Shown here piece after piece: positions 27,069-45,036 of a DNA stretch of 64,000 nucleotides. The notes beneath the pieces are model-generated. The model saw nothing but the letters and a program-made list of their open reading frames with translations. It was not told the DNA's origin and searched no databases. The position numbers and the translations under genes are program-made. Source of the DNA: Rhizohabitans arisaemae (GTDB taxonomy: Bacteria > Actinomycetota > Actinomycetes > Streptosporangiales > Streptosporangiaceae); NCBI RefSeq assembly GCF_025996515.1, contig NZ_BLRH01000060.1, positions 1,364,001-1,428,000 of the forward strand, given 5' to 3'. Each line of letters opens with the position of its first letter. Positions within the stretch are counted from its first letter, which is position 1.

Positions 27069-29453
27069 TCAGTGGGCCATGTCGACGAAGCGGCTGTAAT
27101 GACCTTGGAAGGCGACCGTCACGGTCTGGGTGGGTCCGTTACGGTGCTTCGCCACGATGAGGTCGGCCTCACCGGCTCGGGGGGATTCACGCTCGTAGGC
27201 GTCCTCCCGATGCAGGAGGATGACCACGTCGGCGTCCTGCTCGATCGACCCGGACTCCCGCAGGTCCGACACCTGCGGACGTTTGTCCTGCCTCATCTCC
27301 GGGCCACGGTTGAGCTGGGAGATGGCGATGACGGGGACCTCAAGCTCCTTGGCGAGCAGCTTGAGCGCCCGGGAGATCTCGGAGACCTCCTGCTGACGGC
27401 TCTCCGTGCGCTTCGGCGAGCTCATGAGTTGCAGGTAGTCGACGATGACGAAGCGAAGATCGTGACGCTGTTTCAACCGCCGGCACTTGGCCCGGATCTC
27501 CATCATCGACATGTTCGGCGAGTCGTCGATGAACAGCGGTGCCTCCGCCACCTCGCTCATCCGGCGGGCCAGCCGGGTCCAATCCTCGTCGCTCATCGTG
27601 CCCGACCGCATCGAGTGCAGCGCCACCTGGGCCTCGGCCGAGAGCAACCGCATGGTGATCTCGTTCCGGCTCATCTCCAGGCTGAACACGACGGTGGTCA
27701 TGTGGTGCTTGATCGCCGCCGATCTCGCGAAGTCCAGCCCGAGGGTCGAGTTGTGCGTGGGAATCCAGGCGCGGCTCGCCAGGTAGAGGTGGTCGGCGTT
27801 GTCCACCTCGACGCACCGCACCGGAACCGACTCGATCGGCCGGACGTCGGTGATGTAGCGCCGGAGCGTCGTGGGATGTTCGCGGGTGCACTGCCGGGCG
27901 ATCTTTCCGGTGAGCCGGAAGACCTTGTCACCCGGCGTGAAGGTGACCGTGTGGCGGGTCCCGCCTCGCCGGACCGGTCGCGTCGTCATCGTCGCCCGGT
28001 ATCCGAGGCTGAGAATCAGCTCCCGGGTCTCCTCGGCCAGCCGCCGGTGGGCGACGATGAAGTGGACGGTCCCGCCCGCGTTCACCCGCCCCCGGGTGTC
28101 CAGCAGTCCGGCCAGCAGGGCACGCCGCTGGGCGGCCGACCCCCGGAGGTAGCCGGCGGGGATGTGCCGCTCCGCCAGGACGTCCAGCGCCGCCAGCGTC
28201 GTCCGCAGGCCGGCGTCCTCGTGGCGGCACTCCTCCACACCGCAGTCGGGGCAGATGCGGTAACCGGTGGGGGTGCGCCCGACATGGCGGCCTTCGGCCG
28301 TGAGGTGGACGCCGAGCTCCGGATCCGAGGCGACGATCTCACCGTCGTCCCGGCCCGCTCCGAGCCATGCGCCGAGCAGGTAGGGCGGCAGCGGGAGGGT
28401 CCGCTCCGGAAGGTCGAGGGGGTTCGCCAAGGCGACGGAGTGGTTCGGCCGGCGATCGGCGGTGGCGCACCGCAGGGTGTCGGCGATCTCGGCGGTGGTC
28501 TTCACGGCCGGGAACGGGCTCTGCCGGCGACGTTCCATCGGCTTCCCGGCCGCCCGGCGTGCGGATCGGGTGTCGGTGAGCCACTGGTGCTCGGCGTCCG
28601 CGACCACCACGGTCCCGTCGCTGAACTCGACCTCGAAGCAGGGCCGCCCGGTCATGACCTCGGTTGCGGCGACCACGCGGGTCGGTCTTCCGTCCGCGCC
28701 GATCAGCTGGTCCCCGGTCCTGACCTCGCCCATGGTGGTCCAGCCGGTGGGGGTGGGGAGCGGGGTGTCCAGCGCGAGGGCCTTGCCGATCGCGGGGCGT
28801 GCGGCGACCACGATCATCTGTCCCGGATGGAGCCCGTTCATCAGGTTGTCGAGTTCCCTGAAGCCGGTGGGCACGCCGACCATCTGGCCGCTCCGGCTCC
28901 CGATCGCCTCGATCTCGTCGAGCGCGCCCGGCATGATCTCCGAAAGCGGCCGGTAGTCCTCGCTGGTCCGCCGCTCGGTCACCGCGTAGATCTCGGCTTG
29001 GGCCCGGTCGACGAGCTCGTCGACCTCTTCACCGCTCCCGCCGTATCCGAACCCGACGATCCTCGTGCCGGCCTCGATCAGGCGCCGCATGACCGCCTGC
29101 TCCCGAACGATCTTGGCGTAGTACCCGGCGTTGGCGGCGGTCGGCACCGCGGACAGGAGGGTGTGGAGGTACGGCGCGCCGCCGACTCTGGCGAGTTCGC
29201 CTCGTTTGCCCAGCTCATTGGCGACGGTGACGGGATCGGCCGGCTCCCCGCGGCCGTACAGGTCCAAGATCATGTCGAAGACCATCTGATGTGCGGGGCG
29301 GTAGAAGTCCTCGGACCTGATCACTTCGACCACGTCCGCGATGGCGTCCTTGGAGAGCAGCATGCCACCGAGGACGCACTGCTCGGCTTCCATGTTGTTG
29401 GGAGGCGTTCGCTCGAAGGCCGCCTCGAAGACGGGTGGTTCGGCGATACTCAC
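27069..29453 (-). CDS. dnaB: Replicative DNA helicase DnaB, interrupted by an intein
   Basis: 794 codons from GTG 29453. Residues 1-224 and 569-794 join to a normal 450-aa DnaB: N-terminal helical domain (PPNNMEAEQCVLGGMLLSKD), linker, then RecA-like motor. The Walker A loop is cut by the intein: ARPAIGK on one side and STLGLDFARS on the other. Walker B is RFVIVDYLQLMSS, followed by EISRALKLLAKELEVPVIAI, SQLNRGPEMRQDKRPQVSDL and arginine-finger region LIVAKHRNGPT. The hexamer unwinds DNA ahead of the replisome. Activity requires protein splicing because the intein separates Lys from Ser of the P-loop. Its upstream region has a cluster of DnaA boxes. Confidence 0.97.
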   Translation of the reverse strand: MSIAEPPVFEAAFERTPPNNMEAEQCVLGGMLLSKDAIADVVEVIRSEDFYRPAHQMVFDMILDLYGRGEPADPVTVANELGKRGELARVGGAPYLHTLLSAVPTAANAGYYAKIVREQAVMRRLIEAGTRIVGFGYGGSGEEVDELVDRAQAEIYAVTERRTSEDYRPLSEIMPGALDEIEAIGSRSGQMVGVPTGFRELDNLMNGLHPGQMIVVAARPAIGKALALDTPLPTPTGWTTMGEVRTGDQLIGADGRPTRVVAATEVMTGRPCFEVEFSDGTVVVADAEHQWLTDTRSARRAAGKPMERRRQSPFPAVKTTAEIADTLRCATADRRPNHSVALANPLDLPERTLPLPPYLLGAWLGAGRDDGEIVASDPELGVHLTAEGRHVGRTPTGYRICPDCGVEECRHEDAGLRTTLAALDVLAERHIPAGYLRGSAAQRRALLAGLLDTRGRVNAGGTVHFIVAHRRLAEETRELILSLGYRATMTTRPVRRGGTRHTVTFTPGDKVFRLTGKIARQCTREHPTTLRRYITDVRPIESVPVRCVEVDNADHLYLASRAWIPTHNSTLGLDFARSAAIKHHMTTVVFSLEMSRNEITMRLLSAEAQVALHSMRSGTMSDEDWTRLARRMSEVAEAPLFIDDSPNMSMMEIRAKCRRLKQRHDLRFVIVDYLQLMSSPKRTESRQQEVSEISRALKLLAKELEVPVIAISQLNRGPEMRQDKRPQVSDLRESGSIEQDADVVILLHREDAYERESPRAGEADLIVAKHRNGPTQTVTVAFQGHYSRFVDMAH
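27750..28781 (-). mobile_element. DnaB intein (344 aa, class 3) with degenerate LAGLIDADG endonuclease
   Basis: Residues 225-568 of the precursor. It begins ALALDTPLPTPTGWTTMGEV, so position 1 is Ala rather than Cys/Ser. It ends AWIPTHN, with Ser as the first C-extein residue. The class 3 'WCT' set is present: Trp67 in block B (AEHQWLTD), Cys323 in block F (VPVRCVEVDNADHLYL) and Thr342 before the terminal His-Asn. The endonuclease blocks are PYLLGAWLGAGRDDG and RALLAGLLDTRGRVN. Aligned to LAGLIDADG, the catalytic Asp of each block appears replaced (Ala and Arg). A Cys-rich CPDCGVEECRHED lies between them. At 344 aa it is shorter than the roughly 416-aa mycobacterial DnaB intein. Splicing should proceed; homing probably does not. 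Confidence 0.93.
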
Positions 29454-29749
29454 GGTGCACCCCCCTCACTCGTGAACCCTGCGACCCCACGACACCCACA
29501 TCTAGTCACCAGGACCGACAGTTTTCCGCCTTCACCCGCCATCGGCAACGCAGCCTGTTGATGAGCCTGTGGACAACCTGTGCAAAGCACCGATTCACAT
29601 GTGGGCGACCCTGTGGACAACCTTGTGGATATCTTCCAGCTGCATCCTTGAAAACGCTCTGACCTGCGAAAATTTCATCCACTGTCTGTGGAGGAAAGAA
29701 AGTTGTAACGACACGCCGTCCACAGGATGAGAGCCGCTGACGCAGCTGA
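29454..29749. promoter_or_regulatory. dnaB: dnaB upstream region with a cluster of DnaA-box-like sites
   Basis: A 296-bp non-coding gap. TGTGGACAA (reverse of the actinomycete box TTGTCCACA) occurs at 29568-29576 and 29612-29620. TGTGGATAT occurs at 29624-29632, and CCGTCCACA, forward orientation and fitting YYRTCCACA, at 29717-29725. Three sites share one orientation. It is too short and lacks dnaA/dnaN flanks, so I do not call it oriC; DnaA control of dnaB transcription is more likely. Confidence 0.6.
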
Positions 29750-43263: not shown

Positions 43264-44343
43264 ATGGGTTCGGTGCGTGTAGCCATCGTCGGCGTCGGCA
43301 ACTGCGCCGCATCGCTGGTTCAAGGCGTCCACTTCTACCGGGATGCCGACCCTGGCACCCGCGTACCCGGCCTGATGCACGTCAAGTTCGGCGACTACCA
43401 CGTCGGGGACGTCGAGTTCGTCGCGGCGTTCGACGTCGACGCGAAGAAGGTCGGCCGCGATCTCTCCGAAGCGATCGTCGCCTCGGAGAACAACACCATC
43501 AAGATCTGCGACGTGCCCCCGCTCGGGGTCACCGTACGCCGGGGGCCGACATTCGACGGTCTCGGCGAGTACTACCGCGAGATCATCCACGAATCCGACG
43601 AGGAACCCGAGGATGTCGTGCGGATTCTCCGGGAATCCAAGGCCGACGTGCTGGTTTCCTACCTGCCGGTGGGTTCGGAGGAGGCGGACCGCTTCTACGC
43701 GCAGTGCGCGCTGGACGCCAAGGTCGCCTTCGTCAACGCCCTCCCGGTCTTCATCGCCTCCGACCCCGAGTGGGCCGCCAAGTTCGAGGCGGCGGGCGTG
43801 CCGATCGTGGGCGACGACATCAAGTCCCAGGTCGGAGCCACCATCACCCACCGGGTGATGGCCAAGCTGTTCGAGGACCGCGGGGTTGAGCTGCTCCGCA
43901 CGTACCAGCTCAACTTCGGCGGGAACATGGACTTCATGAACATGCTGGAGCGTAAGCGCCTCCAGTCCAAGAAGATTTCCAAGACCCAGTCCGTCACCTC
44001 CCAGATCCCGCACGAGATGGGCAAGTCCGACGTCCACATCGGCCCGTCGGACCACGTGCCGTGGCTGGACGACCGCAAGTGGGCCTACGTCCGCCTGGAG
44101 GGGAAGTCGTTCGGCGACACCCCGCTCAACCTCGAGTACAAGCTTGAGGTCTGGGACTCGCCGAACTCCGCGGGCGTGATCATCGATGCCGTCCGCGCCG
44201 CGAAGATCGCCAAAGACCGGGGGATCGGCGGCCCGATCCTGTCCGCCTCGTCGTACTTCATGAAGTCGCCGCCGGTGCAGTACGCCGACGACGACGCGCA
44301 CGAGGCGGTGGAGCGGTTCATCCGCGGCGAGGTCGATCGCTGA
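43264..44343 (+). CDS. ino1: Inositol-3-phosphate synthase
   Basis: 359 aa. [20 protein letters not shown] is the NAD-binding start of bacterial Ino1, followed by [40 protein letters not shown] (catalytic region) and the C-terminal [14 protein letters not shown]. It converts glucose-6-phosphate to inositol-3-phosphate for phosphatidylinositol and mycothiol, which is characteristic of actinobacteria. AAGGAG lies about 9 nt before the ATG. It follows PadR by 12 bp and its 3' side holds the DnaA-box palindrome. Confidence 0.97.
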
Positions 44344-44397
44344 TCGGCATCGGTCCCGACCGGAAAGAATCAAGAATCTTCTTCAAGATTCAATGTT

Positions 44398-44438
44398 TGA
44401 TCACAGCTTATCCACAGCCTGTGGATAAGCTGTGATCA
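44398..44438. repeat. 41-bp perfect palindrome with two inverted perfect DnaA boxes
   Basis: Two 20-nt arms are perfect reverse complements around C44418. Within them TTATCCACA (44408-44416) and TGTGGATAA (44420-44428) are perfect consensus DnaA boxes facing each other, separated by 3 nt. It lies between convergent ino1 and idi, ending 1 nt before the idi stop codon, so it may act as a terminator, a DnaA-titration/reactivation site, or both. Confidence 0.85.
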
Positions 44439-44439
44439 T

Positions 44440-45036
44440 TCAATCCGGGATCGCGGCGGGCGGCAGCAGCGCGACATCGGCCGACGGCCATCGCAGCGGG
44501 TCGTCACCGATCGCGACGAGCTCCGGCACCTGCTCCCGGCACCAAGGGGAGATCTCGAGGTCGCCGCTGAGCACCCCTTCGGCGAACCCGGCCCACGACA
44601 TCCAGCGCACGGCGCCGACCTCTTCGGGGTTGGCCTGCGGATCCGTCTCCACGATCGCCCGATAGACCGGGCAGACCTCGTACTCGACGATCCCGCTCGC
44701 CATCACCGCCCGATAGCGGAAGCGCGGCAACATCAAATCGATGCGCGACGCCGCCAAGCCCAGTTCGTGCCGGAGCCGGCGGGCCACCGCCCGGGCGATC
44801 GGCTCCGACGGCTGTGGATGGCCACAGCAGCTGTTGGTCCACACCCCGGGCCAGGTGAGCTTGTCGTCGGCCCGCCGTGTCAGCAGGACCCTGCCTTCGG
44901 CGTCGAAGACATAACACGAGAACGCCAGATGCAGAGGGGTGTCGCGACCGTGGACCTCGTCCTTCGGCGCGACTCCGATCGCCTGTCCGGCGTCGCCGAC
45001 CAGGACAACGTGCTCGGAATCCAGTTGAGCGATCAC
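44440..45036 (-). CDS. idi: Isopentenyl-diphosphate delta-isomerase, type I
   Basis: 198 aa from GTG 45036. The Nudix-like fold has SCCGHPQPSEPIARAVARRL with the catalytic Cys (NSCCGHP) and the later YEVCPVYRAI region. A Glu pair for the metal site is in NPEEVGAVRWM. It interconverts IPP and DMAPP for polyprenols. The stop lies directly against the 41-bp palindrome. The gene upstream on the other strand is an MFS transporter with which it shares a 123-bp promoter gap. Confidence 0.95.
   Translation of the reverse strand: MIAQLDSEHVVLVGDAGQAIGVAPKDEVHGRDTPLHLAFSCYVFDAEGRVLLTRRADDKLTWPGVWTNSCCGHPQPSEPIARAVARRLRHELGLAASRIDLMLPRFRYRAVMASGIVEYEVCPVYRAIVETDPQANPEEVGAVRWMSWAGFAEGVLSGDLEISPWCREQVPELVAIGDDPLRWPSADVALLPPAAIPD

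Follow-up and report, generated by a model that had tools for sequence, protein, structure and literature searches.

The DnaA-box cluster D78 of Streptomyces coelicolor, reportedly described by Smulczyk-Krawczyszyn in 2006, is said to lie near oriC. The available parts of PMC5742627 cite D78 as a datA-like element that represses untimely initiation and describe the clusters of Bacillus and Streptomyces as analogues of datA, a non-oriC DnaA site of Escherichia coli that lowers initiation and acts together with IHF. In excerpts of PMC10950094, IHF loss from datA is associated with transcriptional read-through. The DnaA box consensus of Streptomyces is given as TTGTCCACA in the accessible text of PMC4285127.

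For Bacillus subtilis, excerpts of PMC5295017 state that removal of all six DnaA-box clusters leads to early initiation. DnaA-bound regions have also been ranked in vitro, and in the accessible sections of that study (PMC4447404), the six strongest regions outside oriC contain 4–11 predicted boxes per 300 bp, the ywlC upstream region ranks sixth of the top 20 (9 predicted boxes, apparent Kd of 0.25 µM for ATP-DnaA) and the three top-20 regions that have only two boxes bind more weakly, with Kd values of 1.4–4.9 µM. Apparent repression by DnaA of several genes in B. subtilis, including ywlC, is noted in the same sections. In a further class of DnaA site, DARS of E. coli, box I is oriented opposite to box II, and ADP release accompanies head-to-head contact between the DnaA molecules bound there (PMC5742627, PMC8682772, both in the parts available); DARS boxes are described in the former as equally spaced with box I reversed, and DARS2 as containing IHF and Fis sites. 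In the open-licence literature searched, we found no paper on a set of facing DnaA-box pairs with a 3-bp gap in Streptosporangiaceae.

The palindrome between ino1 and idi

The window analysed here is the whole 64-kb stretch of the Rhizohabitans arisaemae genome, and all coordinates refer to it. A perfect 41-bp palindrome is located at 44398–44438, is not assigned to a strand and consists of two 20-nt arms around a central nucleotide (20+1+20). It contains two copies of TTATCCACA, DnaA box 1 on the forward strand (44408–44416) and DnaA box 2 on the reverse strand (44420–44428), whose 3′ ends point at each other over a gap of 3 bp; the palindrome, boxes and gap are exactly those given in the original prediction. 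No third DnaA box with at most one mismatch was found beside the pair. Speculatively, a weak flanking box can be read on either side, namely TTGATCACA (44397–44405, forward strand), which matches TTRTCCACA at 7 of 9 letters and is separated from box 1 by 2 bp, and ATGATCACA (44431–44439, reverse strand), which matches at 6 of 9 and is separated from box 2 by the same distance.

The window contains three perfect inverted repeats with an arm of at least 12 and a loop of up to 8, of which the palindrome is the longest; five block shuffles returned none under these limits. Based on composition alone, about 4e-6 perfect 20-bp arms (loop 0–8) are expected in 64 kb. For exact inverted pairs at the 3-bp spacing, the expectation in 8.33 Mb is approximately 6e-6 (composition) to 1e-4 (uniform letters), and two exact facing pairs were observed genome-wide. 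The palindrome with its paired boxes is far above chance. A mobile or repeated element was considered and rejected, as the exact core occurs at only two places in the genome with flanks that are unlike each other.

The palindrome lies between the ends of two convergent genes, ino1 (inositol-3-phosphate synthase, 43264–44343, forward strand) and idi (isopentenyl-diphosphate isomerase, 44440–45036, reverse strand), with 54 nt to the ino1 stop codon and 1 nt to that of idi. This arrangement had been predicted from the letters and their translations and is borne out by matches above cut-off to TIGR03450 (ino1) and NF002995 (idi). As RNA, the palindrome folds into a 19-bp stem closed by 3 loop nucleotides (−31 kcal/mol, z −9.5), and a small second hairpin (44374–44391, forward strand; 7-bp stem, 4-nt loop) is positioned just upstream. 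A stable stem is present directly behind a gene on both the ino1 and the idi side, and it probably ends both transcripts. Terminators of a long-stem type without a T-run are known in actinomycetes, and no T-run follows the palindrome stem on either strand. The palindrome is not among the sites listed by the terminator scan of the window.

Facing pairs in the host genome

The host genome is an 8.33-Mb draft of 63 contigs; dnaA is located on the palindrome's own 1.78-Mb contig, with 25 kb between the palindrome and the dnaA start. Genome-wide, TTATCCACA occurs 21 times versus 15 for the reversed word. Four of the 21 copies adjoin dnaA or lie in the dnaA–dnaN interval, one lies within dnaA and another four make up both exact facing pairs. 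TTATCCACA is thus the normal DnaA box of the host lineage and is not notable by itself, contrary to the original prediction, which had singled out its AT-type consensus.

Genome searches were made in the facing orientation with one control pattern, the reversed one. Using TTRTCCACANNNTGTGGAYAA with A or G as third letter, a 3-bp gap and up to two mismatches, we detected eight facing pairs in the host genome versus none for the reversed control. The gap reads GCC or GGC in 7/8. Five of the eight pairs lie within 130 kb of dnaA: one at oriC, beginning 176 bp before dnaA and carrying two mismatches, and the others at −125 kb (acetyltransferase-like gene/catalase), −25 kb (the palindrome, ino1/idi), +62 kb (rhomboid/crgA) and +120 kb (yceI). 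For the non-oriC pairs, this amounts to 4/7 at no more than 130 kb from dnaA (binomial, about 3e-5). The remaining three are far from dnaA or unplaceable; two are on contig C28, which is not the dnaA contig, and one is approximately 1 Mb from dnaA inside a methyltransferase gene.

According to script gene calls, three of the eight host pairs lie between convergent genes (ino1/idi, rhomboid/crgA and yceI with its neighbour), and promoter regulation is therefore unlikely at these sites. We considered whether DnaA bound at the palindrome might instead be a roadblock to convergent ino1 and idi transcription, which would make its role transcriptional and not replicative. The position between convergent gene ends, shared by the yceI and crgA/rhomboid sites, agrees with such a function, as does the apparent repression by DnaA of B. 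subtilis genes including ywlC (PMC4447404, in the sections available); however, a roadblock leaves both the gathering of sites near dnaA and the pair upstream of a purF-like gene unexplained, and we regard it as very doubtful. An operator for an unrelated dimeric regulator, whose half-site happens to resemble a DnaA box, would fit the strict dyad symmetry and the near-constant GCC/GGC gap of the host sites. However, the box letters vary as those of DnaA boxes do (TTA/TTG), one pair lies just before dnaA and several sites are at gene ends, which makes an operator of this kind extremely improbable.

The pair upstream of the purF-like gene is host locus L226. A facing pair within a long palindrome was also seen near a purD-like gene, judged by eye, at L130 (Streptosporangium amethystogenes), L198 and L199 (including G336).

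Facing pairs in relatives and their distance from dnaA

In Streptosporangiaceae, the strict pair was found at 27 places in 24/341 genomes (the host's own included), with no hit for the reversed control; the other 317 genomes are without it. In the class sample, it is present in 7/394 genomes and, outside the family, in 3/346. A looser pair (one mismatch or less) returned 62 places in 21/24 genomes and no control hit; these genomes were hand-picked for having few contigs, an earlier match or close kinship, and 21/24 is not a prevalence. Among the matches listed for a named genome collection, many Firmicutes and others carry the strict pair. In Peribacillus, Priestia and a record labelled Paenibacillus, it is positioned upstream of a ywlC-like gene (identified by eye from sequence and neighbours), with 6, 12 and 9 further paired bases, respectively.

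Distances from dnaA were taken in eight near-complete chromosomes, i.e. those of the hand-picked genomes in which the dnaA contig is approximately the whole chromosome and at least one site is present; G023 and G158, with large dnaA contigs, and G056 have no site and stand outside this set. With sites less than 2 kb apart merged, the eight chromosomes contain 15 separate sites, three of them at oriC. None of the 12 non-oriC sites is farther from dnaA than 24 % of the half-chromosome (0.239^12 = 3.5e-8) using circular distances, and a linear treatment of 10 sites agrees. In several draft genomes, the distance is not assignable because sites are on contigs without dnaA (for instance, 5/5 in G266, 2/2 in G035 and 2/2 in G135).

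The flanks were read for 25 of the 27 strict family sites. Twelve have at least eight further paired bases and 13 have fewer, so that the long hairpin is a frequent, yet dispensable companion of the pair.

Conservation at ino1, yceI and crgA

For ino1, 31 genomes were searched, 30 of which matched, and 27 loci with long matches were read (L037–L063, with the host locus among them); L064, in which a contig end interrupts the gene, and L065–L066, whose matches are weak and distant, were dropped. An exact TTRTCCACA is present in the ino1 locus of 0/26 relatives. Conservation of the boxes at ino1 was accordingly rejected; they are private to the host genome as far as sampled, in samples that hold no congeneric species. 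A perfect hairpin with an arm of at least 9, situated within 200 bp behind ino1, was detected in 7/26 relatives, with arms of up to 26 bp and unrelated sequence. In some relatives, the slot behind ino1 is thus occupied by a terminator-like hairpin, and in the host lineage it would also be a DnaA site.

One of the loci read, L042 (G122), has a 23-bp perfect hairpin behind ino1 with loop-proximal arms GCTTATCC/GGATAAGC. These resemble the palindrome stem minus the ACA half of the DnaA box, and the hairpin is possibly a relative of the palindrome element.

One alternative is that the palindrome is a terminator of ino1 and idi only and that the boxes are in its stem by coincidence. This would account for the convergent genes and the very stable hairpin, for the unrelated hairpins behind ino1 in 7/26 relatives and for the boxes there being unconserved. 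It does not account for the strict pairs at 27 places among 341 genomes against none for the reversed pattern, or for the way in which sites gather round dnaA, and 13/25 of the family sites read have the pair without a long hairpin (fewer than eight further paired bases). The missing T-run and the silence of the terminator scan also speak against it. Taken together, we consider a terminator with chance boxes unlikely.

At yceI, matches were obtained in 44/46 genomes, and 30 loci were read. Among the 11 close in-family orthologues (at least 59 % identity), a facing pair lies 5–323 bp downstream of the gene in seven (the host and 6/10 relatives) and is lacking in four; the pairs vary in box letters and gap among orthologues. 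The remaining 19 loci, which are paralogues or come from outside the family, contain no facing pair, and the reversed control returned no hit in 105 kb. In genera g15, g24 and g35, a site next to a yceI-like gene takes the form of a long palindrome that closely resembles the one at ino1. A counterpart of the rhomboid/crgA pair was seen in G152 (L189), where the genes were identified by eye. Conservation of the palindrome downstream of ino1, which the original prediction had proposed to look for, is thus absent at that gene and present for the type of pair and for the sister site behind yceI.

Compensatory changes were assessed as proof of selection on the yceI stem and set aside as weak: a single pair shows changes in both of its partners, the two genomes concerned belong to the same genus and 50/500 shuffles reach the covariation score.

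Other DnaA boxes near dnaB and dnaN

The window also contains three DnaA boxes (TTGTCCACA twice and ATATCCACA) at 29568–29632, 115–180 bp upstream of dnaB (27069–29453, minus strand, start at 29453). The dnaB product has 794 aa versus 435 for the DnaB profile and shows a weak mid-protein match to an intein-containing family; an intein within dnaB is likely. Among the matches listed, boxes that face each other over 14 bp were seen upstream of a dnaB-like gene in three genomes of genus g3 (L020, L022, L025). In the same genus, and again among the matches listed, a second dnaN-like gene, the product of which has 51–53 % identity to the host DnaN, adjoins facing boxes with gaps of 15–16 bp (L019, L028, L030, L031, L033, L034 and L035; two with an outer box at 27).

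Comparison with DARS of E. coli

We take the E. coli DARS sites to lie near mutH and between bioD and uvrB. In E. coli K-12, both regions contain a box, 5 bp, an inverted box, 3 bp and a third box with one mismatch from the consensus. We infer that these are the DARS cores and treat them as candidates, since a loose scan also listed other triples, one more near uvrB and three more near mutH.

The palindrome resembles the DARS1 and DARS2 cores in having two DnaA boxes in opposing orientation, and its weak outer boxes, which match at 7 and 6 of 9 letters and are set off from the pair by 2 bp on either side, are candidates for a DARS third box. It differs in that its gap is 3 bp and not 5 bp, and in that the third tandem box of the E. 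coli cores is stronger and 3 bp off, whereas the outer boxes of the palindrome are weaker and 2 bp off. We rejected membership of DARS on the gap, which is 3 bp against 5 bp in both candidate cores, and do not file the palindrome there. Pair spacing more widely points the same way: among the 17 exact pairs listed outside genus g3, the 5-bp gap occurs in 0 and the 3-bp gap in 9, counts that hold for the matches listed, where one of the two host pairs is missing.

The original prediction had raised a DnaA-reactivating site, which we take as DARS-like, with head-to-head DnaA dimers on the facing boxes that expel ADP. The facing orientation, as in DARS boxes I and II (PMC5742627, PMC8682772, in the parts available), and a weak tandem box outside each strong box lend it some appeal. 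However, with the E. coli candidate cores built on a 5-bp gap and a third box that has a single mismatch and begins 3 bp on, and with no 5-bp gap among the pairs counted, we judge such a site to be distinctly unlikely, and as regards membership of DARS, this part of the prediction is unsupported.

Among the matches listed, 12 loci have a 3-bp facing pair followed 2 bp on by a tandem TGTGGAT, which is near the DARS box order (L067, L068, L070, L077, L080, L082, L085, L092, L099, L108, L135 and L174). They are mostly labelled Lachnospiraceae or Blautia.

Proposed function

Our best reading, which we hold with slightly better than even confidence, is that the palindrome is an oriC-proximal DnaA-titration site inside the hairpin terminator of ino1 and idi. 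The identity of the boxes, the enrichment of facing pairs, their gathering near dnaA and the Bacillus parallel lead us to predict that the palindrome binds DnaA. Titration would be its simplest role since the site is copied soon after oriC, is hardly placed to act on a promoter and resembles known clusters. The original prediction had likewise suggested a titrating or replication-coordinating site that is also a transcription stop, and this putative double role is the best-supported part of it, given the pair enrichment over the reversed control, the occurrence across the family, the clustering around dnaA and the hairpins in the ino1 slot of some relatives.

According to this titration model, the palindrome would be one DnaA-binding site of a set around oriC, with two DnaA molecules bound face to face on consensus boxes 3 bp apart. 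At approximately 25 kb from oriC, the site would be duplicated early in each round and would therefore take up DnaA, helping to hold back re-initiation in a manner reminiscent of the Bacillus clusters and of Streptomyces D78. The boxes would sit within a long stem that serves as a shared terminator for the convergent ino1 and idi. We speculate that termination at the site may keep transcription from sweeping DnaA off, an idea that comes from the association of read-through with IHF loss from datA (PMC10950094, excerpts).

The object of interest would, in our view, be the set of facing pairs round oriC rather than the palindrome alone. A bolder proposal builds on this set and is, at present, rather improbable: that boxes facing each other over 3 bp form a distinct platform for a head-to-head DnaA dimer, with symmetric weak outer boxes, at loci that recur to either side of oriC (the dnaA promoter, ino1/idi, crgA/rhomboid and yceI). 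Such a platform might be an actinomycete counterpart of datA or DARS that changes the nucleotide state of DnaA, with the stem as a shielding terminator.

If true, this would yield a short motif that can be searched for and that recurs at certain loci of one actinomycete family. Initiation control exerted from outside oriC, whether by titration or through the DnaA nucleotide state, would then be open to tests in which few sites are deleted, and a terminator slot could be said to be recruitable as a DnaA site.

Comparison with known systems

Set beside the long-stem terminators of actinomycetes, the palindrome has the same long perfect stem behind a gene and the same lack of a T-run, and it differs in that two DnaA boxes are built into its stem, one on each side of the loop. 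With the B. subtilis DnaA-box clusters, it shares the grouping of DnaA boxes outside oriC. With 4–11 predicted boxes per 300 bp, the six strongest non-oriC regions of B. subtilis exceed the palindrome, which has two consensus boxes, and as two-box regions bind more weakly in B. subtilis, a site of this size may be a poor sink for DnaA. Unlike in the B. subtilis clusters, the pair in the palindrome occupies the centre of a long hairpin that has convergent genes on either side. Measured against what is expected of a titration site, the locus has the minimum of two close consensus boxes outside oriC, and it is close to oriC (25 kb). It is comparable with datA as a predicted DnaA site outside oriC, although datA works with IHF. 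With D78, finally, the palindrome shares an actinomycete host and a position near oriC, and the two are set apart by their box consensus, which is TTGTCCACA in Streptomyces and TTATCCACA here.
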